A DNA stretch of 13,980 nt from Desulfonatronospira sp. (lineage in GTDB: Bacteria; Desulfobacterota; Desulfovibrionia; Desulfovibrionales; Desulfonatronovibrionaceae): contig PWSL01000410.1 in assembly GCA_003563255.1 (NCBI GenBank), positions 1 through 13,980 of the forward strand, in the 5' to 3' direction. The notes below the pieces were generated by a model. It was not told the origin of the DNA and did no database searches. It saw nothing but the letters and a program-made list of their open reading frames with translations. The position numbers and the translations under genes were made by a program. Of the stretch, positions 3,327 to 13,980 are shown piece by piece. Every line of letters starts with the position of its first letter. Positions within the stretch are counted from its first letter, which is position 1.

Positions 3327-3385
3327 TCAGCATCTCTGCAGCAAGCTTTCGTACATGTCCGTTAAAGCTGTTACGAAAAATCTAT

Positions 3386-3416
3386 TGCACACATCGCGTC
3401 AAGCGCGAAATGTAAA
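3386..3416. repeat. Solitary fourth copy of the palindromic repeat
   Basis: This 31-nt copy (arm TGCACACATCGCG, loop TCAAG, arm CGCGAAATGTAAA) matches the units at 78-184. It lies 5 bp after the stop of the TPR gene, so it forms the 3' boundary of the long minus-strand train and could act as a transcript-end hairpin. It is not followed directly by a T-run; a T5 comes 13 nt later. Together with the left array it brackets the MoxR/VWA cassette. Confidence 0.75.
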
Positions 3417-3421
3417 CATGT

Positions 3422-4666
3422 TTATCCCCTGTCCAGGATCTCTATCCAGTACCTGGCCCGACTGCGCAGTTCCGGATCATTTTCTGCCTGGCGGAACGCT
3501 TCTCTGGCGCTGTCTAAGCGTCCTTGATGATATTGGGAGATTCCCAGCAGAAACAGGGCATCCCGGCGTGCTTTCGGGCACTGGGACTCAGTGGCGAGAC
3601 GCAAATGCTCACTGGCCTCATCCCAGTCTTCTATCTGCATGAAAATTCTGCCCAGGCGCAGCCTGCACTGGCAATTATTTTGACGCGTTAACTTTTCCTG
3701 CATGGCATTGGCTGCAAGGCGCAACTCACTGGCCTGGTGCCAGGCATCAGCCAGAATCTGATAGTATCCGGGTCTGTCCGGAATTTTTCCGTCTTCAAGA
3801 GCCTGCTGCAGAATCAAGGCTCCCTTGCGGGGCACTCCGGCCTGGCGGTAGAGCTGCGCCAGCCGGACGATGTCATCTGAGCTGTCAAACACTCCACTTT
3901 GATACCCGGCTGACAAAACAGCTGCTGCCTTATGGTCATTGCCCAGGTGCATGTGCACCCCTGCCAGGTGCTCCCAGTAGCGTCTTTCACCTGGATTACG
4001 CTCCAGGAGCACAGGCAGCCATTTTAAAAGCCCTGCATAATCATCAGCACTATGCATGGCGGCCACCAGCATTTCCATCCAACTGTCCCGGGGCTTGTCC
4101 GCATTCTGAATAGCAGCTTTCATGTGCTTAACAGCTTCCTGATAGCTTCCGGCCTGGTAATGTATCCAGGCCACTCCGGCATGCTCATCTGGGGTTAGTT
4201 CGCCAGCCATATCGGTCCACTTGCTGATCCTTTTCAGGGCCTCATCATAATATTCCAGAATAATCAGAACCTGAGCAGAATTATACAAAAGCCGGCTTCT
4301 AATGGACTTATCAATCTCATCATAGCCAAGGGCATTGTCAAAGGCGTTCAAAGCTTCCTGGTGACGGCCTGATTCACTAAGCAGGTATCCGCGCATCTGC
4401 CAGGCGGAAACCAGCGTGTGGGGATCATTGCTGAACCTGTCTATAACCTGCAATAAAATTGTGTCTGCATCTTCCCATTTTTGTTCACCCACAAGCTCTC
4501 TTGCCTCATTGAGCGCATTGAATGCTGCCTGAGGTATTGTGGCTTGTTCATTCCCGGCCTGGGCTGCGGACTGCCAGCAAAAGAGTGCAAACAAACCAAG
4601 AACAACAGACAAAAACAAGTGCCCTGATTTACCGGGTTTGCTGATGGACTTTTGGAAGGTACTCAT
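3422..4666 (-). CDS. Secreted tetratricopeptide-repeat protein of the TonB2 cluster
   Basis: The protein has 414 residues. It starts at an ATG 7 nt after GGAG. An N-terminal signal peptide or anchor (basic start, hydrophobic core LFLSVVLGLFALFCW, then SAAQA) sends it to the periplasm. The rest is an array of about ten helical hairpins with TPR spacing, for example WQMRGYLLSESGRHQEALN and WIHYQAGSYQEAVKHM. A periplasmic TPR protein is the usual last gene of Vibrio-type TonB2/TtpC clusters, where it is thought to assist TonB2-dependent transport. Here it follows tonB, with a 152-bp mobile element between them. It is a scaffold by family; the partner is not visible from sequence. Confidence 0.85.
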   Translation of the reverse strand: MSTFQKSISKPGKSGHLFLSVVLGLFALFCWQSAAQAGNEQATIPQAAFNALNEARELVGEQKWEDADTILLQVIDRFSNDPHTLVSAWQMRGYLLSESGRHQEALNAFDNALGYDEIDKSIRSRLLYNSAQVLIILEYYDEALKRISKWTDMAGELTPDEHAGVAWIHYQAGSYQEAVKHMKAAIQNADKPRDSWMEMLVAAMHSADDYAGLLKWLPVLLERNPGERRYWEHLAGVHMHLGNDHKAAAVLSAGYQSGVFDSSDDIVRLAQLYRQAGVPRKGALILQQALEDGKIPDRPGYYQILADAWHQASELRLAANAMQEKLTRQNNCQCRLRLGRIFMQIEDWDEASEHLRLATESQCPKARRDALFLLGISQYHQGRLDSAREAFRQAENDPELRSRARYWIEILDRG

Positions 4667-4705
4667 ATTTTTTCTCCTGCACTATGTTTATGCGATGTCT
4701 GGCGG

Positions 4706-4857
4706 GTATCTGTTTAGCGCTTTTGAGGAAAGCAGGGGACAGGCAACTCCGGGACCCACTTGAGCATCATTTTGTGCTTAAAATGACTCATTTTCCGGGA
4801 CAAGCGGGTCCCGGAAGAGCCAGTCCCCGTGCCACATGCAAAGCGCTAAACAGATAC
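4706..4857. mobile_element. 152-bp MITE-like element E2 between tonB and the TPR gene
   Basis: Perfect 18-bp terminal inverted repeats (GTATCTGTTTAGCGCTTT at 4706-4723, its complement at 4840-4857) are flanked by a perfect 8-bp direct repeat TCTGGCGG at 4698-4705 and 4858-4865, the mark of a target-site duplication. Inside are the boxes GGGGACAGGCA (4735-4745) and AGAGCCAGTCCCC (4816-4828), and within them an inner palindrome CCGGGACCC/GGGTCCCGG (4749-4757, 4806-4814) that extends through CTTG/CAAG. There is no coding sequence. The insertion lies 4 bp beyond the tonB stop. Its RNA would fold into a long nested hairpin in the operon transcript. Confidence 0.85.
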
Positions 4858-4869
4858 TCTGGCGGGAGT

Positions 4870-5547
4870 TTAGTCATCCAGCCTGAATGATATGGTAATG
4901 GTGGCCAGAGCCGGGACCGGCTCCCCCTCTCTGGTCTGAGGGTGAAATCTCCACCTGCTTAATGCCCGGACAGCTTCCTGATCAAAAACACCGCGCCTTG
5001 GAGAGGCTTCCAGGACCTGTACATCCTTGACTGATCCATCAACATCTACGATGAACTCCAGCCTGACCCATCCGGATATACCTGCTAACTGGGCCCGCCT
5101 GGGATAGCGGGGCGGGACCTGGCTCACCGGAGTCAGGGATCTTGTGTAACGTACGGGGCCCTGGGCTGCTTCAGGACTCTGAGCCATGGGAGTCGCCGCC
5201 ACGGGCAGGTCAGCCATGCTTAGATCCGGTCGAATATTCGGAATCAGGGGATCAATGCTCAAGGCAGGAGGTTTTGGCTCCTGTGGTATGGAGGTGGCTT
5301 CCACGGGTGGGACTGGTTCAGGTTCTTCCAGAGGTTCAGGTTCATTTCTCTGGCGCTCCCTGATTACTTCATCAGGAGCATCAAGCCGAATGAATTCAGG
5401 GATAGGTGCAGATCTGTCCAGGTAAAGACTGACATCACGCTGGGAAATCAGGCCCTGCATAAGCAGAAAAAGCCCTACAGCAACTCCTATCCCCATGGTC
5501 ATGGATATTGCGTGTCTTGCAGCTGCTTTAGAAGACAGGGAATACAT
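4870..5547 (-). CDS. tonB: TonB energy-transducing protein (TonB2-like, short linker)
   Basis: TonB couples the ExbB/ExbD proton motor to outer-membrane receptors. The 225-residue protein has one membrane anchor at 14-33 (ISMTMGIGVAVGLFLLMQGL), a short P/E-rich spacer at 68-95 (EPEPLEEPEPVPP), and a C-terminal TonB domain from about 140 to 225. That domain has YPRRAQLAGISGWVRLEF, VDGSVKDVQV, the FDQEAVRALSRWRFHP helix-strand and a final ATITISFRL strand. I chose the ATG at 5547, preceded by AAAGGAAAAATAGTT. A start at 5715 would add 56 residues encoded by the adjacent mobile element and its flank, and would bury the membrane anchor. The short spacer fits TonB2 rather than classical TonB. Confidence 0.9.
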   Translation of the reverse strand: MYSLSSKAAARHAISMTMGIGVAVGLFLLMQGLISQRDVSLYLDRSAPIPEFIRLDAPDEVIRERQRNEPEPLEEPEPVPPVEATSIPQEPKPPALSIDPLIPNIRPDLSMADLPVAATPMAQSPEAAQGPVRYTRSLTPVSQVPPRYPRRAQLAGISGWVRLEFIVDVDGSVKDVQVLEASPRRGVFDQEAVRALSRWRFHPQTREGEPVPALATITISFRLDD

Positions 5548-5601
5548 AACTATTTTTCCTTTAGGCGTAGCCCTTATACCCTGATACAAAAAGGTTTTAA
5601 C

Positions 5602-5754
5602 GGGAGCATTACGCGTTTCTGACAACCAGATAGGGGACAGTCCCGAAGCCAGGGACAGTCCCCGTGCCAAGCCATGATAAACCGCTTTTAACCCCAAAAA
5701 AGCTGTGACAAACACATCATTTTTTTTCAGTTGTCAGAAACGCGTAATGCTCCC
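5602..5754. mobile_element. 153-bp MITE-like element E1 between exbD and tonB
   Basis: Perfect 24-bp terminal inverted repeats at 5602-5625 (starting GGGAGCATTACGCGTTTC) and 5731-5754 are flanked by the perfect 8-bp direct repeat GTTTTAAC at 5594-5601 and 5755-5762. The interior has GGGGACAGTCCC (5633-5644) and GGGACAGTCCCCGTGCCA (5652-5669), the latter sharing CAGTCCCCGTGCCA with element E2. There is no transposase frame. Its right end resembles the relic at 6419-6437. It separates exbD from tonB, which are normally adjacent or overlapping. Confidence 0.85.
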
Positions 5755-5827
5755 GTTTTAACAACAAAGATATAATGTTAACAAAGTAAAAATGCACAGA
5801 ATCACCCACTGTCTTTCCTTTGCGGCC

Positions 5828-5918
5828 TTTGCGAGAGACAAAGAAAAGAGGTGGCACGCTAAGCCGCTAAGTTTTAAAGTATTTCTTCTTATCGCTTTTG
5901 CGTGAGAAAAAGAATCTG
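5828..5918. repeat. Imperfect direct repeat, TTTGCG(A/T)GAGA type, in the exbD-tonB gap
   Basis: Two copies of a roughly 20-nt unit, TTTGCGAGAGACAAAGAA at 5828-5845 and TTTGCGTGAGAAAAAGAA at 5897-5914, are separated by AAGCCGCTAAG-type sequence. This resembles the dispersed 'CTTTGCG...TTAGCG' intergenic repeats common in such genomes. With E1 it fills the 402-bp gap 5548-5949. I see no gene there. Confidence 0.5.
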
Positions 5919-5949
5919 AGTTGCTGGTGTAGCCAGAACTGGGTTACTT

Positions 5950-6360
5950 TCAAGGCCGACTGGCTGCCACAGCCACGTTCTGCACCCCGGCCTGACGGAC
6001 CTGGTCCATGACCTGGATAAGAATCCCTGTCCGGGACTCCTCGTCAGCCTGAATCACCACTGATCCCTCGGGATTTTCAGCCCTGAGTCTTTCAACATTG
6101 GCCCTGACCGCCCGGATATCAACCTGACGCCCGTCTATCCAGATGGCTCCGGCATCAGACACTGCTATCATAATATTGGCCAGTTCCTGGCGCTGGGCTG
6201 TGGAAGCTGCAGGTCTGTTTATCTCAATGCCAGCTTCTTTTACAAAGGATGTGGTCACAATAAAAAATATGAGCATGATAAACACCACGTCCATCATGGA
6301 AGTCATATCTATCTGGGCGGATTCAAGTTCCATCCTCTCCCGTCTTTTTCGCAATCTCAT
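5950..6360 (-). CDS. exbD: ExbD/TolR-family proton-channel subunit
   Basis: ExbD forms the proton pathway with ExbB and drives TonB. The protein has 136 residues: a short basic cytoplasmic start (MRLRKRRERM), one membrane helix at 23-41 (MDVVFIMLIFFIVTTSF) with the conserved channel Asp at D24, and a periplasmic domain ending in the DQVRQAGVQNVAVA motif. The IDMTSMMDVVFIMLIFFIV stretch is typical of TonB2-associated ExbD. The start at 6360 lacks a good ribosome binding site (only AAGG about 12 nt upstream), and the preceding 73 bp contain a mobile-element relic that may have displaced the native signal. Confidence 0.9.
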   Translation of the reverse strand: MRLRKRRERMELESAQIDMTSMMDVVFIMLIFFIVTTSFVKEAGIEINRPAASTAQRQELANIMIAVSDAGAIWIDGRQVDIRAVRANVERLRAENPEGSVVIQADEESRTGILIQVMDQVRQAGVQNVAVAASRP

Positions 6361-6381
6361 AGATTTATTCAGCCTTTTTCA

Positions 6382-6437
6382 GGGGGTGCCTGTCACCAGT
6401 ATCAGAATGGTGCTGTTTACAAACGCGGTAATGCTAC
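6382..6437. mobile_element. Half-element relic between exbB and exbD
   Basis: The stretch 6419-6437 (ACAAACGCGGTAATGCTAC) matches the right terminal repeat of E1 (GAAACGCGTAATGCTCCC) apart from one inserted G and small changes. The stretch 6382-6397 (GGGGGTGCCTGTCACC) is the complement of the inner box seen in element E3 (GGGGACAGGCACCCCC) with one change. The other outer repeat is absent, so this is a one-sided remnant. It supplies the TAG stop of exbB at 6434-6436. Confidence 0.55.
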
Positions 6438-6982
6438 GGTTTCAGAGAGTGTACAGGGCACTGCTGAAGTTTTTTCAGCAGTTCATCCCTGAGCTTGCTG
6501 CCTTTTTGCCTTCCGCCCCTCTGCAGACGGATGCTGAACACAAAGCCTGACAAAGCTACAACAAGCCCGGCCATGGTGGGGATGGTAGCCATTGACACTC
6601 CAGCTGCCATGGCCCTGGGATTACCTGTTCCCAAAAAGCTAATGGTCTCAAAAACATGGATCATGCCTGTAACTGTCCCAAGAAGCCCCAAAAGAGGACA
6701 AACAGCAATAAGAGTTCTAATCATGGCGAGATGAGCATCCAGCCTCTGCCTGATCCTTGAGACATCCCTGCGCAGCAGCATATCCACGGTTTTAACATCA
6801 GATCCTGGCTGAGACTTCCATCTGGAGCAAAGCTCTGCAAACTCTCTCGGAAAGATCCGCATGTGATACCAGTATCTTTCAATAATAAGAGACCAGAGAA
6901 CTGTTGCCACCCCAAAGATGAGCCACAGCACAGGGCCTCCGGCATCAAAAAAACGTCTGAGCTCAAGTACAGGGTCAACCAT
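6434..6982 (-). CDS. exbB: ExbB/TolQ-family proton-channel subunit (short ExbB)
   Basis: This is the inner-membrane proton-motor subunit that stabilises TonB and ExbD. The 182-residue protein has three membrane helices at about 17-34, 88-108 and 130-150, including the family core CPLLGLLGTVTGMIHVFETI, the LGTGNPRAMAAGVSMA loop and TMAGLVVALSGFVFS. The length suits TonB2-type ExbB, which lacks the long N-terminus of E. coli ExbB. The start overlaps the end of the TtpC-like gene by 8 bp, so the two are probably translationally coupled. The C-terminal residues HSLKP and the TAG stop fall at the border of a mobile-element relic, so the native end may have been altered. Confidence 0.9.
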   Translation of the reverse strand: MVDPVLELRRFFDAGGPVLWLIFGVATVLWSLIIERYWYHMRIFPREFAELCSRWKSQPGSDVKTVDMLLRRDVSRIRQRLDAHLAMIRTLIAVCPLLGLLGTVTGMIHVFETISFLGTGNPRAMAAGVSMATIPTMAGLVVALSGFVFSIRLQRGGRQKGSKLRDELLKKLQQCPVHSLKP

Positions 6983-8336
6983 GTTCCGCCCTTTCCCGGT
7001 ATTTCTGCATATGTTCGGCCAGATATCCTGCGCCCTGCTCCTCCATAATGCCGATCAGCCGCCTGCTCTTGGATGAAGCAATGCTGTGCAGAAAAAGCAG
7101 GGGGATAGCCACGGTCAACCCCAGGGCCGTAGTCACTAAAGCCTGGGATATGCCTCCGGCCATAAGCTTTGGATCTCCGGTTCCAAACAGGGTAATGGAC
7201 TGAAAAGTCTCAATCATGCCCACCACCGTGCCGAGAAGGCCCAGAAGCGGAGCCACTGCAGCCAGGATCTTAATGGTGGTCAAGCCCTTTTCCAGACGGG
7301 GAGACTCCTTCATGATGGTTTCTTCGAGCCTGATCTCCAGAGTCTCTGGATCTACTTTTTTATTTCGAAGGTATTGATCCATTAAACGACCCAAAGGGTT
7401 ATTCCGGATAATCTCTTCTGATCCCAGCTGACTGCGAACCCGCCTCTGGATCAAGATTAGAGCTGCAAATCTAACCACAAAGAGAATTGCGCCCAGTGCG
7501 CCCAGGCAGATTATTATCAGCCCGATGACCCTGCCCTGCATGACTCGCTCTGTAACAGACGGGGACTGGACCAGCTGGGCCAGGATGGCCCCTCTGGACG
7601 GATCCAAGGCAAAAGGCACAATGTCACCCGGTGCTGCTTCATCAAGAGCGGCTGCCTGTCGCAGATAAGCTGATCCGGGTTGCCTGGGAAGCTCTAAAAA
7701 CTGGTTTCTGCCCTGAACATGGGACAGATAATGTCCCTCTGCAACCGCATTAAATGATCCCACCCGGACAATCTGTTTTTCAACCTTATTTCCATCAGGG
7801 CGAACAACTTCTGCACTTAGTCTTGTCACCCGCCCTGCTTCTACCATTTCTTCCAGAATCAGCATCCAGAACCTTTCCAGATCACTTATTGCGGGCAAGC
7901 TTCTGCTGTCTGCCAGCTCATTTAGAAAAACCAGGTCACCGGGTCGATCGGCCATGGTCAGAGAACTCATAAACAAAGCATGAAAGTCCCCGGCGTTCTG
8001 GCGAACAACACCAAACATTTCACCAAGGCCCCCCTGTTCTTCACGCAGATCTTTTTCCAGCCCGGAAAGCAGGGATTCATTCTGTTCATAGACATCCAGC
8101 AGATGCTCCTGCCTGGCTTGCTCACTGCTTAAAGCCTCACGCATCTGTCTGACCCGTTCCCGGGCCCCTTCAAGATCAGACCTGAATTCCTGCTCCCGTT
8201 CCCTGTTAAGGGCTTCTTCAACTGCCGCCCGCTGGCGGATCTCCTGAAGCAAAGTATCAAGATCAGTCCCGGCCTGGGCAGAACCAGTCATGAAAAGACC
8301 CATGATCAGGGCAGTCAAAACAAACAGATATCTCAT
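6975..8336 (-). CDS. TtpC-like long ExbB protein (MotA/TolQ/ExbB domain with periplasmic coiled coil)
   Basis: The 453-residue protein carries a signal peptide (MRYLFVLTALIMGLFMTGSAQA), a charged coiled-coil region at about 28-105 and a periplasmic domain to about 265. A membrane helix follows at 271-296, then a MotA/TolQ/ExbB channel domain at about 310-445 with APLLGLLGTVVGMIETF, FGTGDPKLMAGGISQAL and a last helix near 400-420. This is the layout of TtpC, the extra component of TonB2 systems described in Vibrio, which uses a second ExbB-like protein beside ordinary ExbB. ATGA overlaps join it to the DUF3450 gene upstream and an 8-bp overlap joins it to exbB downstream. All channel-domain motifs look intact. 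Confidence 0.88.
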   Translation of the reverse strand: MRYLFVLTALIMGLFMTGSAQAGTDLDTLLQEIRQRAAVEEALNREREQEFRSDLEGARERVRQMREALSSEQARQEHLLDVYEQNESLLSGLEKDLREEQGGLGEMFGVVRQNAGDFHALFMSSLTMADRPGDLVFLNELADSRSLPAISDLERFWMLILEEMVEAGRVTRLSAEVVRPDGNKVEKQIVRVGSFNAVAEGHYLSHVQGRNQFLELPRQPGSAYLRQAAALDEAAPGDIVPFALDPSRGAILAQLVQSPSVTERVMQGRVIGLIIICLGALGAILFVVRFAALILIQRRVRSQLGSEEIIRNNPLGRLMDQYLRNKKVDPETLEIRLEETIMKESPRLEKGLTTIKILAAVAPLLGLLGTVVGMIETFQSITLFGTGDPKLMAGGISQALVTTALGLTVAIPLLFLHSIASSKSRRLIGIMEEQGAGYLAEHMQKYRERAEHG

Positions 8337-9178
8337 GGCTGTTCCATCATTGCCGGCGTTGAATATTCATCAAATCCTTCATCTTCGTACACAGGAACAA
8401 AAACCGGCAAAGACATGGTCACAGGTACCTGAATGAGCTCAGGTGCCGCCTGTCTGCCGGCTATGCGCATACCCTGCCGGACAGCCTGATTATATCTCCT
8501 GTCCAGAGGCAGCCACGCTCTGTCGCGGGCGCTCCAGAAACCGGTTTCACTTCGGTCCAGAGTCTGATACGCCAGGATTAGACGTCCAATGCGCAGAAAC
8601 TCAACGCTTCTCTCCTGCCCGTCCAGGACAAGCTCACCCTGGAAGGCCTCCATACTCCGTCCAAAGTCAGACTCAGTCTGATAAGCCAGCATGATCTGCC
8701 GGAACTTTTCCGGAATATCCACATCTGCTCTGACCATGAGGTTTCTCAGGCCTTCCACCCTGGCCCGGCGCTCATCCTGCAGAAAAGGCAGATCAGCATG
8801 GACAAAGTCTTCCAGAGTATCCAGCATGCGCAGCATAAGGGGGACTATTTCCCGCTTGGTAATCTGGATGTCATTGATCTGTCTTTCCAGGGAGAGCACC
8901 TCTTCCTGTTGTGAGTTGACCATGTCGTTCAGGTTGTCATTGTAAACAACCAGGTTTCTGTGCTGCCGGGAAAGATCTCTGTATTCGTTCAGCAACTGCC
9001 TGGTTTCTTCAGACATCTTGTCAATCCTGTCCTGGGACTGTCTTCCCTGGTCAATGATAATGGATTCTTCCTGCACAATCTGCTGAACTTTATCCCCGGC
9101 CATCAATCTTGCCGGAAAAAAAGCTGCAAATAGAATAATCAAAATTATTATCAACTTATTCAAAACAGATTTCCTCAT
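8333..9178 (-). CDS. DUF3450 periplasmic coiled-coil protein of the TonB2 cluster
   Basis: The 281-residue protein has a signal peptide (MRKSVLNKLIIILIILFAAFFPARLMA), a long coiled coil at about 30-110 (heptad-rich, QSQDRIDKMSEETRQLLNEY) and a helical domain. That domain holds the DLPFLQDERRARVEGLRNLM signature, the FGRSMEAFQGEL stretch and FLRIGRLILAYQTLD, as in the DUF3450 family. DUF3450 genes are typically first in TonB2/TtpC clusters, as here. The stop overlaps the next start (ATGA). No clear ribosome binding site precedes the ATG at 9178. Exact role unknown; a periplasmic partner of TtpC is the usual guess from gene order. Confidence 0.85.
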   Translation of the reverse strand: MRKSVLNKLIIILIILFAAFFPARLMAGDKVQQIVQEESIIIDQGRQSQDRIDKMSEETRQLLNEYRDLSRQHRNLVVYNDNLNDMVNSQQEEVLSLERQINDIQITKREIVPLMLRMLDTLEDFVHADLPFLQDERRARVEGLRNLMVRADVDIPEKFRQIMLAYQTESDFGRSMEAFQGELVLDGQERSVEFLRIGRLILAYQTLDRSETGFWSARDRAWLPLDRRYNQAVRQGMRIAGRQAAPELIQVPVTMSLPVFVPVYEDEGFDEYSTPAMMEQP

Positions 9179-9360
9179 AAGATGTCATTTGGTATGCAAA
9201 AAACACAGCTGGGAGTTTGCAGCTGCAGAAAACTACTCAGGATGCAGGTTAACATCGCTGCATGGTGAATAGTTACAAAACACATATTAAAGATTTTCAT
9301 GCAAAAAGTCGGACAGAAACTTATTCTACAAAAAACATCGCCATAACTCTTTGTTTTTAC

Positions 9361-9416
9361 TGATTCCTGATTCCTGACTTCTGACTCCTGCGACTGCAAA
9401 AGGTGTTTTTGCAGTC
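9361..9416. repeat. Short direct repeat and stem-loop in the receptor-DUF3450 gap
   Basis: The gap 9179-9422 (244 bp) contains near-repeats of TGATTCCTGA/TGACTTCTGA at 9361-9390, then a perfect 10-bp stem at 9392-9401 and 9407-9416 (GACTGCAAAA, loop GGTGT, TTTTGCAGTC) 6 bp beyond the receptor stop. On the transcribed strand no T-run follows the stem, so it is more likely an RNA-stabilising or processing hairpin than a full terminator. A promoter for the TonB2 genes could lie in the AT-rich remainder, but none is convincing. A 74-codon frame here is made partly of the repeat and is not called. Confidence 0.5.
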
Positions 9417-9422
9417 AAATCA

Positions 9423-11321
9423 TTAAAACCGGTAGCTCAAACCGCCATAAAAGGTTGTCGGCTCTATCTGGGTAACGTTATTACGCTCAAAGGTTTTGTT
9501 GAAAATATTGTCCACTCCGGCAAAAATCTCAAAGTTTGGGCCGAAACCTTTGGAAATATAGGTTCCAAACAGTGTGTATGAGTAGCGGTCCCCTTCGGCG
9601 TATTCCATTCTGCCGGTATAAGACATGCGCAGGTTGGCCTTGAGCCTCCAGTCCGGATATTCGTATCCGAGCTTTACAAACCCCTTATACTTGGGCTGGG
9701 CCCCGATATCCTCGCCTCCGGACTTGTTATCAATATCCATCCAGGTCAGGTTTCCGTCCACTGAAAAACCATGGGGAAGTCTAAGGCCTGCCTCAGCTTC
9801 AATCCCTTTGATTGTTGCTTTGGCAATATTATCCCACTGATAATAGCTTTTCCTGTTGCGGCCGCTCCCTTCAACCCGGTCAAAAATGGATTCAATGAGG
9901 TTCTCGACATCAGTATAAAAGCCGGTCAGTCCTGCATAAACAATATCAAAATCTCCTTCGATTCCCAGTTCGTAGCTTGTAGACTTCTCTGCCTTGAGAT
10001 CCGGATTGGCTTCATATACCTCCTGGCCTCTGCGGCGCAGTGAAGTGACGTACAGTTCAGTATGGGAGGGAGCCCTGAAACCCTGGCCAAAAGATGCCCT
10101 GACCCTGATGGAGTCAGACAGGCTGTAAATGGTGGAGGCTCTGGTTGTCCACTGATCTCCATATTCAGAATGATTATCATAGCGCAGCCCGAGAACCAGA
10201 TAAAGCGGATCAAAAATATTAAATTCATCCTGCAGAAATACGCTGAAATTATTCACATGTTCCTTGTTGCGCAGCTCGCCCATCTGGGTATCATCCAGTT
10301 CATCCCGTCGGAAATCAAAACCCAGGGTTACCAGATGGCTGTCAAAGTAAAGGCCTGAATATCTTGCCTCAGCCTGATTCACATACTGGCTGGTATTTCT
10401 TCTGCCTGACCGGGCGTCCGGATCGAAACGCATTTTATTTTCATATTCCGACCTGTTCACCCTGAGCATAATGTCATGCACGTCTGAAAAATGAGCATCA
10501 TACTGGGCAAAATATCCTCTTCGTTCTTCATCAAAGTTTCTTGTCCTGTCCATTCTCTCATAAAACTGACCACCCTCATATTTATTGTCTGTATACTCTA
10601 CCCCGGCTGACAGCATCTGGCTGTCAGTCAAATCAAATGAAAAGCGTCCGGAAAGCAGCAAAGGGGACTCTTCAAACCCGTCATCAGGCAATGAACTGGT
10701 TTTATTCCATCCATCTTTTTTTCGCTTTTCAGCTGACAGTAAAAATCGAAAGCGGTCCAGGGGTCCGCCCACCATGGCGCTGCCTACATACTCTTTGGCA
10801 TCGCCGTCCTTATTAATTCCAAACTGGGTTCTGGCTTCACCGCTCCACTCGTACGGGGCTTTTCTGGTAATAATATTAACAACTCCGCCAAGGGCATCAC
10901 TGCCGTACAGCGCTGAAGCAGGTCCACGCACAATTTCAATGCGATCCACCATAACCACGGGAATCTGGCGCAGATCAATCATGTCATTAAAGCCAAATGC
11001 CAGTCTGCGGCCATCCATGAGCACCAGAGTATGCTTGCTTCTGGCACCGCGAATGCTGGGAACCCTTGTTCTGCCGGACTCTCTGGAAACTATCAGGCCT
11101 ACTGAGTTTTCCAGAGCGTCGGCTACTGTCAGGGCATTCATTTCCTCCATCTGCTTAGAGGTAATGACTTCAATGGACCCCGGTGCATCAGATAAATACT
11201 TCTGAGTCATGGTTGCAGAAACCACAAACTCTTCAAGCCTTGCAGGTTCCTCTTCAGCAGCCGGAGCAGGGCCGCCGGCCATAGTCAGTAACAAAGCCAT
11301 GATAATTATTTTTTTTGCCAC
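9423..11321 (-). CDS. TonB-dependent outer-membrane receptor (BtuB/CirA-like)
   Basis: This is a TonB-energised outer-membrane importer of 632 residues. It has a signal peptide (basic start, IIIMALLLTMAGG, PAPAA), a TonB-box-like LEEFVVSA just after it, and a plug domain from about 35 to 155. Family motifs in the plug are TVADALENSVGLIV, TLVLMDGRRL, DRIEIVRGPASALYGSDALG and GVVNIITRK. A 22-strand-type barrel follows (DSIRVRASFGQGFRAPSHTELY, LRYDNHSEYGD) with the terminal aromatic GGLSYRF. I chose the GTG at 11321, preceded by GGAGAGAG; a start at 11597 would overlap the upstream gene by 230 bp and hide the signal peptide. Plug sequence is closest to the CirA/BtuB group, which does not fix the substrate. 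Confidence 0.9.
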   Translation of the reverse strand: MAKKIIIMALLLTMAGGPAPAAEEEPARLEEFVVSATMTQKYLSDAPGSIEVITSKQMEEMNALTVADALENSVGLIVSRESGRTRVPSIRGARSKHTLVLMDGRRLAFGFNDMIDLRQIPVVMVDRIEIVRGPASALYGSDALGGVVNIITRKAPYEWSGEARTQFGINKDGDAKEYVGSAMVGGPLDRFRFLLSAEKRKKDGWNKTSSLPDDGFEESPLLLSGRFSFDLTDSQMLSAGVEYTDNKYEGGQFYERMDRTRNFDEERRGYFAQYDAHFSDVHDIMLRVNRSEYENKMRFDPDARSGRRNTSQYVNQAEARYSGLYFDSHLVTLGFDFRRDELDDTQMGELRNKEHVNNFSVFLQDEFNIFDPLYLVLGLRYDNHSEYGDQWTTRASTIYSLSDSIRVRASFGQGFRAPSHTELYVTSLRRRGQEVYEANPDLKAEKSTSYELGIEGDFDIVYAGLTGFYTDVENLIESIFDRVEGSGRNRKSYYQWDNIAKATIKGIEAEAGLRLPHGFSVDGNLTWMDIDNKSGGEDIGAQPKYKGFVKLGYEYPDWRLKANLRMSYTGRMEYAEGDRYSYTLFGTYISKGFGPNFEIFAGVDNIFNKTFERNNVTQIEPTTFYGGLSYRF

Positions 11322-11367
11322 ATCTCTCTCCAACAATAATAATTTCTGGATAATTGTTTCAGCAGGG

Positions 11368-12090
11368 TTAGTTCTGAGCCTGTTCCCTGGCCTGGCGGCG
11401 CTGTTCCCTGATTTTTCGGTCCATTTCGCCTTTTTCCATGTGTCCCCAGGCGATGAAGGTGAACAGATCAGGGTCTTCAAAGAGCTCCTCAAACTCCATG
11501 GCCGGATAATTCTCCAGTATAAACCTGCGGTCCTGGCTGCGCTTTTTCCTCTGGGCCTCGGTAATGGTCCCGTCATGCTGCTTTTCCCGCAGTTCAAACC
11601 AGTCCTCGGGCCACACTTTATCTTTAAGCCGGATGGTCACGGCCTGCAGGGTGGACTTGCGCAGGAACTGGTAGACAAAGTTGTCCGCGCTGCGGGTGAT
11701 GCCGGCCGGGGGCCAGGTCTTGTCCCGGGGATTGTCCCCCTTGAATATAAAGTCCAGTGCTCCCATGGACCCCCCGGCTGCAGGGCTGAAGGCCACTACA
11801 TCCTCAATGACCGGGGTTTCCCCGCCGTACAGCATCTCCAGCCCGTACCTGGCCGCCTGAAAGGCCACGGTGGCCGTGAGGCAGGGATGCTCGAGGAATT
11901 CGTAAGTATCCACCAGGCTGAGATTATGGGTCTCACCGTCCCTGATGACTATGATGGGCTCCAGATCCATGGCGGCCTGAGTGTATCCCCCGTCTCCTGC
12001 ACCGCAGCCAGCGGCGGCCGGCAGGGCTGATCCGCAGACCAGCAGCAGGAACACCATGAGCCCGGTCAGTGCTCTCAATTGCAGATTCAT
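11368..12090 (-). CDS. Secreted FmdE-like protein, paralog A
   Basis: The protein has 240 residues. It starts at an ATG 5 nt after AGGAGG. A signal peptide (LTGLMVFLLLVCG, PAAAG) exports it; AAGC at residues 26-29 is a weak lipobox, so a lipoprotein is possible. Residues 60-110 resemble the FmdE fold: TYEFLEHPCLTATVAFQAARYG aligns with the family FHGHxCPGxxxxYRA motif, keeping the second His (H68) and Cys (C70) but losing the first His. Then comes a core shared almost exactly with paralog B (TWPPAGITRSADNFV, RKSTLQ), a degenerate EF-hand-like loop (EKQHDGTITEAQ) and the tail IAWGHMEKGEMDRKIREQRR. FmdE proteins bind metal in known structures. It precedes the receptor gene by 46 bp. A periplasmic metal-handling role is inferred. 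Confidence 0.75.
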   Translation of the reverse strand: MNLQLRALTGLMVFLLLVCGSALPAAAGCGAGDGGYTQAAMDLEPIIVIRDGETHNLSLVDTYEFLEHPCLTATVAFQAARYGLEMLYGGETPVIEDVVAFSPAAGGSMGALDFIFKGDNPRDKTWPPAGITRSADNFVYQFLRKSTLQAVTIRLKDKVWPEDWFELREKQHDGTITEAQRKKRSQDRRFILENYPAMEFEELFEDPDLFTFIAWGHMEKGEMDRKIREQRRQAREQAQN

Positions 12091-12285
12091 TCATACCTCC
12101 TGAAATCATAATATCCTGGCAGTCAAAAGTTTCTTGTAATCATTTATTTTTATAAGCTTTTTTGGCAGATATATATGTCTTTCGGCCCAGACCAGATATC
12201 TATCCAAATATGTTGACCTTATTTCCTTCAACCAGGAACCAGGAACGAAGAACCAATAACTTTGAACTCTCAAGACAATATGTTA
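12091..12285. other. 195-bp gap between the two FmdE-like genes
   Basis: The gap is AT-rich near paralog A and holds the CAGGAACCAGGAACGAAGAACC repeat-type sequence at about 12229-12258, the inverse of the unit at 281-385. I see no terminator. A TATTAT lies just upstream of the paralog A ribosome binding site, but no -35 at suitable spacing, so read-through from the upstream gene is the simplest view. Confidence 0.4.
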
Positions 12286-12993
12286 TTAGTCCCTGTCCCG
12301 TTGAGCTCTCCTCTGCTCCCGGATATGCCTGTCCATCTCACCTTCTTCTATGTGGCCCCAGGCTATAAAGAAAAAGGGCTCAGGCTCGCCGAAAAGCTCG
12401 GCATAAGATTTTTTGGGAAACTCCCGGATGACATAGTTTCTGTCCTGCTGGCGCTTTTCCTGCTCAGCATCGGTGATGCTGCCATCCCGGTGCCTGTCCC
12501 GCAGCACAAACCAGTCATCCGGCCAGAGACCGTCCTGCAGCTTAAGCTTTACGCCCTGCAGAGTGGACTTGCGGTAGAACTCGAAAACAAAGTTGTCCGC
12601 ACTGCGGGTGATGCCGGCCGGGGGCCAGGTCCGGTCAAGATCGCTTCCACCTTTCATCATGAAATCCATTAGATCCAGGGGACCGCCGGGAGCCCTGACC
12701 AGGATGATCAGATCATCAGCAGCCGGGGTATCTCCGTCCGGATAAAGGAGATCAAAACCGTACTGCGCCGCCCGGTAAGCCATGGTGGCCCCCGGGCAGG
12801 TTCCCCCATGGAAGTCGTAGACATCCTGAATGGTTATGATTCTTTCTTCCCCGTCACGGATAACCTCTATGGGATCAAGATTCTTGACCGAGTCCGGCAG
12901 GTCATCGCTGTAAACAATTCCTGAACCGATAATGAAAAAGAAAAACACTATCATACCCAATATCTTAGGCCTCTTCAGGCAGAAAAACAGCAT
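12286..12993 (-). CDS. Secreted FmdE-like protein, paralog B
   Basis: The protein has 235 residues. The ATG at 12993 lies 9 nt after AGGAGG. An N-terminal hydrophobic segment (ILGMIVFFFFIIGSGIVYS) is a signal peptide or anchor. Residues 58-90 (DVYDFHGGTCPGATMAYRAA) match the FmdE signature FHGHxCPG, with first His H62 and Cys C66 kept but the second His replaced by Gly. The second half shares TWPPAGITRSADNFV and RKSTLQ with paralog A. It contains an EF-hand-like loop DRHRDGSITDAE at 166-177 with acidic residues at positions 1, 5 and 12, and ends IAWGHIEEGEMDRHIREQRR. The two genes are a tandem duplication. FmdE-like proteins are known as metal-binding; the ligand here is not shown. Confidence 0.78.
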   Translation of the reverse strand: MLFFCLKRPKILGMIVFFFFIIGSGIVYSDDLPDSVKNLDPIEVIRDGEERIITIQDVYDFHGGTCPGATMAYRAAQYGFDLLYPDGDTPAADDLIILVRAPGGPLDLMDFMMKGGSDLDRTWPPAGITRSADNFVFEFYRKSTLQGVKLKLQDGLWPDDWFVLRDRHRDGSITDAEQEKRQQDRNYVIREFPKKSYAELFGEPEPFFFIAWGHIEEGEMDRHIREQRRAQRDRD

Positions 12994-13139
12994 CTATGTA
13001 AACCTCCTAGCTTCAAGCCCGATTTTCCGGGCCGGTTTCTGGCAAAGCTTGACGTCCTGCATTCCCGGGAAAACGACATCCGCCCGGGATAAAAAGCCGC
13101 ATAAGGCATTTTCAGGCAGGGCCGCCTGGATCAAAAGAA

Positions 13140-13460
13140 CTACCTGATGTCTTCACCGGACAGTTCCACCTGGTGGCCTTCACCACCGTCGAAAAGGATG
13201 GAAAACTCCCCTTCCGGCTTTTCCAGCTCAATCTCACCGTATTCGCAGAGCGTGCCGTACTGGAGGAGTTCACCGCCGGGGCCTCTGACGAAAATCGGTG
13301 TTTCCAGGGCTGAAGAACCATCGGAATAGGCACCTTCACACAGAATGCTCCCGTCTGGTTCCTCGTAACACATAAACAGCGGGGAATGAGCCATGGCCCC
13401 GGAGCTGAAAAAGATCAGACCCGCGACCGCCACCGGAAGAAAAAACCTCTTGCTAAACAT
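13140..13460 (-). CDS. Small secreted Cys/His protein at the head of the gene train
   Basis: The 106-residue precursor starts at an ATG 4 nt after AGGAGG. A clear signal peptide (FFLPVAVAGLIFFSSGAMA) would leave an 80-residue mature protein beginning HSPLFMCY, so the N-terminal residue is His. It has three Cys (MCYEE, ILCEG, TLCEY), a CEGAYSDGSSA motif and a GGEGHQVELSG end. By memory this resembles small Desulfovibrio-type periplasmic proteins with CEGGFSDGS and GPGH motifs and a carboxypeptidase-regulatory-like beta fold, which I cannot verify here. The first position in the train and the Cys/His content suggest metal or ligand binding in the periplasm. It is followed by a 146-bp gap before paralog B containing only weak hairpins. 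Confidence 0.75.
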   Translation of the reverse strand: MFSKRFFLPVAVAGLIFFSSGAMAHSPLFMCYEEPDGSILCEGAYSDGSSALETPIFVRGPGGELLQYGTLCEYGEIELEKPEGEFSILFDGGEGHQVELSGEDIR

Positions 13461-13718: not shown

Positions 13719-13832
13719 GTACTTTTTTGATGTTAATTTTCAAAATTATAAAATTTCCTGCTGATTTCTCCACCAGTACTTTCACAGCCTGACAAAAAAC
13801 TGTTCTCACACAATCATTTCCGGCCCTACCAC

Positions 13833-13980
13833 TACAGCGAAACTTATAAAATATTATACCTGCCTCAATTGGGGACAGGCACCCCCGCACTTATTTTTAT
13901 TACAAATGATCTTGGTTTTATTGGAAAAAATAAGTGCGGGGAGAGCCAGTCCCCGGAGGTTAATAATAAGTTTCGCTGTA
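13833..13980. mobile_element. MITE-like element E3, possibly running past the right edge
   Basis: TACAGCGAAACTTAT (13833-13847) and its perfect complement (13966-13980) form outer inverted repeats that reach the window end, so the true ends may lie further out and no target duplication can be checked. Inside are GGGGACAGGCA (13871-13881) and AGAGCCAGTCCCC (13942-13954), the same boxes as in E2, enclosing a perfect 16-bp inner palindrome CCCCGCACTTATTTTT (13883-13898, complement 13926-13941). There is no coding sequence. It lies upstream of the leader, and 13461-13832 holds only the leader elements listed. Confidence 0.7.

Follow-up and report, generated by a model that had tools for sequence, protein, structure and literature searches.

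A probable Fur-linked iron acquisition operon with its own TonB2-type set and exported FmdE-like proteins in Desulfonatronospira sp.

The window analysed here, 13,980 nucleotides long, is the entire contig C381 (PWSL01000410.1) of a Desulfonatronospira sp. assembly (GCA_003563255.1; 532 contigs, genome completeness 99%). Ten of its genes, all on the minus strand and spanning positions 13460 down to 3422, are read here, with moderate confidence, as a Fur-linked iron acquisition operon equipped with its own TonB2-type set and exported FmdE parts. From upstream to downstream, the promoter motifs and genes are as follows.

13727..13743, minus strand: candidate Fur box TTGAAAATTAACATCAA, lying 283 bases before the small protein begins, three mismatches to WTGAAAATNATTTTCAW
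13718-13713, minus strand: -35-like TTGACA after the candidate Fur box
13140..13460, minus strand: small secreted Cys/His protein, 106 amino acids, kin to the NikL N-terminal domain (NF058648, E 5.8e-8), feoB neighbour in relatives
12286..12993, minus strand: FmdE1, exported FmdE-like protein, 235 amino acids (PF02663)
11368..12090, minus strand: FmdE2, exported FmdE-like paralogue, 240 amino acids (PF02663, 25.5 bits)
9423..11321, minus strand: TonB-dependent outer-membrane receptor, 632 amino acids, GTG start (PF00593 and PF07715)
8333..9178, minus strand: DUF3450 protein (PF11932, E 7.5e-81)
6975..8336, minus strand: TtpC-type protein, 453 amino acids, long N-terminal part plus MotA/TolQ/ExbB domain (PF01618 at 312-432)
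6434..6982, minus strand: ExbB (PF01618)
5950..6360, minus strand: ExbD (PF02472)
4870..5547, minus strand: TonB, 225 amino acids, start corrected by comparison with region L038 (PF03544)
3422..4666, minus strand: TPR protein with apparent N-terminal signal sequence, ending the TonB2-type set (TPR families)

Pfam analysis placed nine of the ten genes clearly in known families (FmdE twice, TonB receptor plug and barrel, DUF3450, MotA_ExbB twice, ExbD, TonB_C and TPR), the small protein being the exception, with no Pfam match at E 0.1. The start of TonB was moved from GTG 5715 to ATG 5547 because the homologue in L038 shows that start, and the receptor start was revised to GTG 11321. An earlier note, made from the sequence alone, had named ten same-strand genes of these families, a TonB2/TtpC-type receptor cluster and exported FmdE-like proteins beside the receptor, and the analysis bears these out. 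The TonB2/TtpC energising system is known from Vibrio; the window likewise has the DUF3450-TtpC-ExbB-ExbD-TonB-TPR order with the corresponding domains but, unlike the Vibrio system, sets it in one run with the receptor, two FmdE proteins and a Feo-companion protein. The description of the uptake system as self-contained did not hold, as no inner-membrane importer was found within the cluster, and the inner-membrane step must therefore use another transporter.

Relatives of the small Cys/His protein were detected in 65 of 199 genomes of the order, its own included. Forty places from that listing, picked by score and variety, were fetched, of which 39 were positive by tblastn, and FeoB (named, like DUF4198, by Pfam on representatives and by tblastn for the remainder) lay on the same strand less than 1 kb upstream in 35 of the 39 regions. 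A DUF4198 gene followed downstream within 1 kb in 34, and both neighbours were present in 33. The four regions lacking FeoB contained an ABC transporter (L089 and, judged by eye, L090), a nearby Fur-family gene (L101) or FeoA-like and DUF4198 genes (L109). Residues H25, C31, D36, C41 and H96 were invariant in 44/44 sequences, H25 adjoining an A-x-A cleavage-type motif. This feoB companion, common in the order and with four invariant Cys/His residues, offers a direct test. A model predicted from the single sequence showed a seven-stranded beta structure (pLDDT 82), for which Foldseek returned general beta-sandwich matches only, none at E 0.001. In the window's own genome a second small-protein gene (L089, G000:C155, 393-4301) has as neighbours a gene of DUF4198 type and an ABC transporter accompanied by a DUF4857 protein, and L090 of genome G395 combines a small protein with transporter genes similar, by eye, to those of L089.

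For the promoter region, published consensus sequences were taken from the Iron, Nickel and Molybdenum sections of PMC545781, which give WTGAAAATNATTTTCAW for delta-proteobacterial Fur, GTGTTAC-N13/14-GTAACAC for NikR and CGGTCACG-N14-CGTGACCG for Desulfovibrio ModE. The candidate Fur box upstream of the small protein was equalled by 3/200 shuffles (P 0.022 on a 370-base stretch, 500 shuffles). At the equivalent place in G395 (L036), where an atypical FeoB gene diverges from the small protein-FmdE1-FmdE2 genes, a perfect Fur box lies in between (0/200 shuffles), followed by TTGACA after 7 bases, compared with 8 in the window. The whole window contains four Fur-type sites with three or fewer mismatches against 0.33 expected, the three others inside genes, and across 36 stretches upstream of feo operons the best Fur site averaged 4.8 mismatches versus 6.1 in shuffles. 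A search for metal-regulator sites before the operon, as the earlier note had proposed, yielded a Fur-type box, if an imperfect one, whereas the best NikR and ModE matches upstream in the window were no better than shuffles (equalled by 197/200 and 152/200, respectively). Rfam gave nothing at gathering scores; weak upstream matches to microRNA and lncRNA families were judged to be noise.

Receptor orthologues at E 1e-130 were confined to three of 395 genomes of the phylum, namely its own, G046 and G252. In G252 (L048), a feoA-like gene, feoB and the small-protein gene precede the orthologue (41% over 644 amino acids); also upstream are a peroxidase and a Fur-family gene, the latter 2.6 kb ahead of the feoA-like gene. 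Similar parts appear in the 2004 delta-proteobacterial Fur regulon table, which lists, with candidate Fur sites, the Desulfovibrio desulfuricans operon fepA-feoA2-feoB2, where a receptor is joined to a ferrous transporter (PMC545781); unlike that operon, the window lacks FeoB and has FmdE proteins and a TonB2-type set instead. The closest solved receptor chains were Cir, then those of the FepA/PfeA (ferric enterobactin) type, then PhuR and BtuB, and receptor sequence similarity does not settle the ligand. At thresholds of E 1e-15 and 1e-12, FeoB was not detected in the window or elsewhere in its genome, a fragmented assembly that can miss a gene, while a joint search of 21 genomes found a match in 20, in several of them an atypical 600-residue FeoB or another GTPase. 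One full FecCD permease with an ABC-type ATPase and a periplasmic binding protein is encoded on the unlinked contig C284 and is a candidate inner-membrane importer for the substrate of this receptor.

The neighbourhood recurs in related genomes, as the earlier note had required of its proposal. With FmdE1 as query (E 1e-5), matches were obtained in 11 of the 395 phylum genomes and in 5 of the 199 from the order, own genome counted, and a scan of the named-genome collection added one FmdE locus, in Syntrophobacteraceae bacterium isolate T3Sed10_239 (L042). A receptor paired with an FmdE-like gene was found in L038, L039, L042 and L020, and the TonB2-type set accompanies it in L038, L042 and, as far as ExbD, L020. 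In L042 the order is FmdE, receptor (64%), DUF3450, TtpC, ExbB, ExbD, TonB and TPR; in L038, from G408 of the same family, the small protein comes first, then FmdE, the receptor (98%) and the TonB2-type set; and in L020, from the distantly related family of G046, the succession is FmdE, receptor (47%), small protein, pieces of a receptor, DUF3450, TtpC, ExbB and ExbD, after which the contig nearly ends. L039 (G411) has FmdE and receptor (68%), and G395 (L036) carries the small protein together with both FmdE genes but no such receptor at E 1e-80.

Both FmdE copies, which are 46-48% identical, passed the curated PF02663 cut-off of 22.9 bits (FmdE1 at 31.0 bits), and FmdE1 displays the FmdE alpha+beta core fold. 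A profile built from a 17-row alignment matched 2gvi (7e-4) and 2glz (0.01) in the PDB, plus two unrelated weak rows; a seven-row profile returned nothing at E 0.01. In 2glz, a mixed zinc and nickel site is formed by His15, His17, Cys19 and Cys55, two of which are missing from 3d00, so that the four ligands are not strictly defining. FmdE1 retains H62 and C66 (His15 and Cys19 of 2glz), FmdE2 retains His and Cys at the places of His17 and Cys19, and both have Gly at the Cys55 place. The fold is kept and the metal site is partly lost, with two of four ligands per copy. Compared with the solved members of this poorly understood family (2glz, 2gvi, 3d00; PMC2954224), the window copies have in common the fold (FmdE1) and the conserved first Cys, but they are exported, carry Gly for the second ligand Cys and have each lost one ligand His. 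No match was obtained when plasmids were searched with FmdE1 or viral contigs with both copies.

The 17-row profile matched in 162 of the 395 genomes of the phylum, and the gene context was compared in 59 regions, 19 from earlier searches (window included) and 40 from this 162-genome listing, mostly the best-scoring with a few picked for length; in some, L152 and L153 included, this profile recognises FmdE but Pfam at E 0.001 does not. Division by eye gave 28 regions with exported FmdE (hydrophobic N-terminus; twin-arginine type in L182) and 31 without. Feo, Fur or small-protein genes occurred in 9/28 exported-FmdE regions versus 1/31 of the others (p 0.004), TonB-system genes in 9/28 versus 3/31 (p 0.05), either kind in 14/28 versus 4/31 (p 0.004) and tetrapyrrole genes in 5/28 versus 2/31 (p 0.24), where the p-values describe rather than prove, because 19 regions came from searches that started from the window protein or its kin, lengths were unequal and relatedness was uncorrected. 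The FeoB fragment of L039 was counted though below the script threshold, because a full FeoB match (6.2e-57) lies there, about 11.5 kb from the FmdE gene. In L018, genes for Fur and a FeoA-domain protein neighbour the exported FmdE. Two regions encode fusion proteins:

L022, 9185-10729: exported CbiX-type chelatase and FmdE domain fusion, feoB 3.0 kb away
L152, 7700-9082: exported CbiX-type chelatase and FmdE domain fusion, near feoB

L152 is the most telling region of the comparison, as it holds within 7.5 kb the exported CbiX-FmdE protein, a FeoA-domain protein and, 1.4 kb from the fusion, feoA-feoB-small protein-DUF4198 (feoB read in two pieces). Further features of the exported proteins are an N-terminal CxxCH, a possible c-type heme site, in L018, L019 and L020, and an NTPDWFYP-type start in several members of a separate subgroup (L145-L149, L174, L177). 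Tetrapyrrole-methylase-family proteins with apparent export signals stand beside exported FmdE in L019 (10059-10928), L026 (1628-2566) and L023 (13895-15697); a reaction that depends on SAM would be unexpected in the periplasm.

The genes, the FmdE1 fold, the linkages and the promoter motif are shown by computation. From the Fur-type box, the feoB linkage of the small protein and of the receptor orthologue, and the absence upstream of NikR or ModE sites beating shuffles, we infer that the cluster probably serves iron acquisition. The receptor would carry an iron complex, in whatever chemical form, across the outer membrane, powered by its own DUF3450-TtpC-ExbB-ExbD-TonB-TPR set; the small Cys/His protein and the two exported FmdE-fold proteins may then bind, release or pass on iron in the periplasm, and a separate transporter, for example the unlinked FecCD-type ABC system as a candidate, would complete the inner-membrane step. 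The earlier proposal of periplasmic metal capture by exported FmdE-like proteins and a receptor is partly supported, the cluster being probably for a metal. Several observations weigh against the iron reading. The window Fur box carries its three mismatches, the Fur-type site of L038 (G408) has four and is non-significant (35/200 shuffles equal), and the upstream stretches of L042, L048 and L018 contain no Fur site better than shuffles. The sole named relative of the small protein is the nickel/cobalt protein NikL, and on NCBIfam the receptor scores 231.2 bits for heme and 230.7 for B12, both below cut-offs. No Feo, Fur or small-protein gene was found in 19/28 exported-FmdE regions, a count that depends on a by-eye export split uncorrected for relatedness: the L145-L149, L174 and L177 subgroup has, by eye, a variety of other neighbours (ArsR, TauE-like and efflux genes, for instance); L019, whose FmdE belongs to the window's subgroup, has a tetrapyrrole methylase and a solute-binding protein nearby; and L025 has ModA-type ABC genes.

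The NikL relationship raises the alternative of nickel or cobalt uptake, in which the small protein would be a free NikL periplasmic domain and the receptor and FmdE would deliver Ni or Co. NikL (NF058648) matched four tested relatives at 1.3e-9 to 2.1e-14, the mixed metal of 2glz includes nickel, and the Nickel section of PMC545781 proposes nikK and nikL as periplasmic nickel-binding parts. Like these companions of NikMQO, the window protein is small and exported, and its relatives have a DUF4198-type protein as partner. NikK is DUF4198-like. The NikL match of the window protein, however, reaches 32.9 bits against an equivalog cut-off of 100 and covers only positions 3-90 of the 180-position model; unlike NikL, it has no second half, and its relatives lie beside FeoB in most regions checked (NikMQO near them was not searched for), which, together with the lack of a NikR site of the published consensus, makes this explanation unlikely. 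Molybdate, tungstate or a cofactor, at which the FmdE name and the earlier note hint, is very improbable. An exported FmdE does lie between TonB and two ModA-type ABC gene sets in L025, L023 has an Oxidored_molyb plus tetrapyrrole methylase protein, and the solute-binding protein of L019 (PBP_like_2/SBP_bac_11) is two genes off; but L025 and L023 fall outside the window's FmdE subgroup, and the Fur-type box, the feoB linkages and the missing ModE-type site point to iron. A published count of 208 FmdE genes placed only 13 next to genes for formylmethanofuran dehydrogenase, and none of the latter is among the window's 13 scanned genes, the contig stopping 520 bases upstream of the cluster.

As a special case of iron uptake, the receptor could import heme or another metallo-tetrapyrrole, with FmdE taking part in the periplasm in capturing it or removing its metal. 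The exported CbiX-FmdE fusions of L022 (where Pfam recognises both domains) and L152 (where it recognises CbiX, and only our own profile FmdE), the methylases of L019, L023 and L026, the CxxCH motifs and the sub-threshold heme-receptor score are consistent with it; yet Pfam finds neither chelatase nor methylase in the window, tetrapyrrole genes near exported FmdE are not clearly enriched, and the closest solved receptors are not heme receptors, leaving it distinctly unlikely. Extending the iron acquisition reading to the phylum, exported FmdE might be a general periplasmic iron-release or transfer part of Feo- and TonB-linked uptake, some copies fused to a chelatase and taking iron from metallo-tetrapyrroles outside the cytoplasm, while here FmdE, the Feo companion and a receptor-TonB2 module would together take over from FeoB. 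We consider this rather unlikely; the repeated exported, iron-linked FmdE context provides a direct test, and the arrangement would show a way to combine an outer-membrane receptor with a ferrous-iron pathway.

In comparison with G408, and with insertions set aside, most 200-base steps across the receptor-to-TPR block showed 94-100% nucleotide identity, as opposed to about 78% over most of fmdE2, with the change near 11400 (3' end of fmdE2, sliding comparison). G408 has one FmdE match only and a small protein 53% identical to that of the window, and FmdE2 is equally distant (79%) from G408 and G395. This contrast in identity suggests that the receptor-TonB2 block may have been exchanged between genera. 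The window VWA gene had no match in G408. The MoxR-like gene (2999-2247) is 5'-truncated relative to its G395 homologue, without nucleotide-binding loop or Pfam match, and its homology to G395 breaks off around 3033, close to the boundary of the TonB module; the trio of MoxR, VWA and a third gene also occurs close to the small protein in L036 and in four regions with feo and small-protein genes (L086, L108, L112 and L113). Two stretches are absent from L038:

5565..5949: intervening stretch between exbD and tonB, its inner part with 33-nt inverted arms at 5594-5626 and 5730-5762
4707..4862: short element with inverted repeats, separating tonB from the TPR gene and bordered, by eye, by an 8-base direct repeat

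Short terminal-inverted-repeat elements were noted at 4707-4862 and 5594-5762, both inside the operon, and at 13843-13980. The first and the last have a common core like GAGCCAGTCCCCG, and a copy 82% alike to the 4707-4862 element is present at L038 4530-4669. A 44-nt repeat with the palindrome-like core CGCGTCAAGCGCGAA occurs in four copies, three in tandem at 38-base steps (68-187) and the fourth at 3376-3419, just downstream of the TPR gene.

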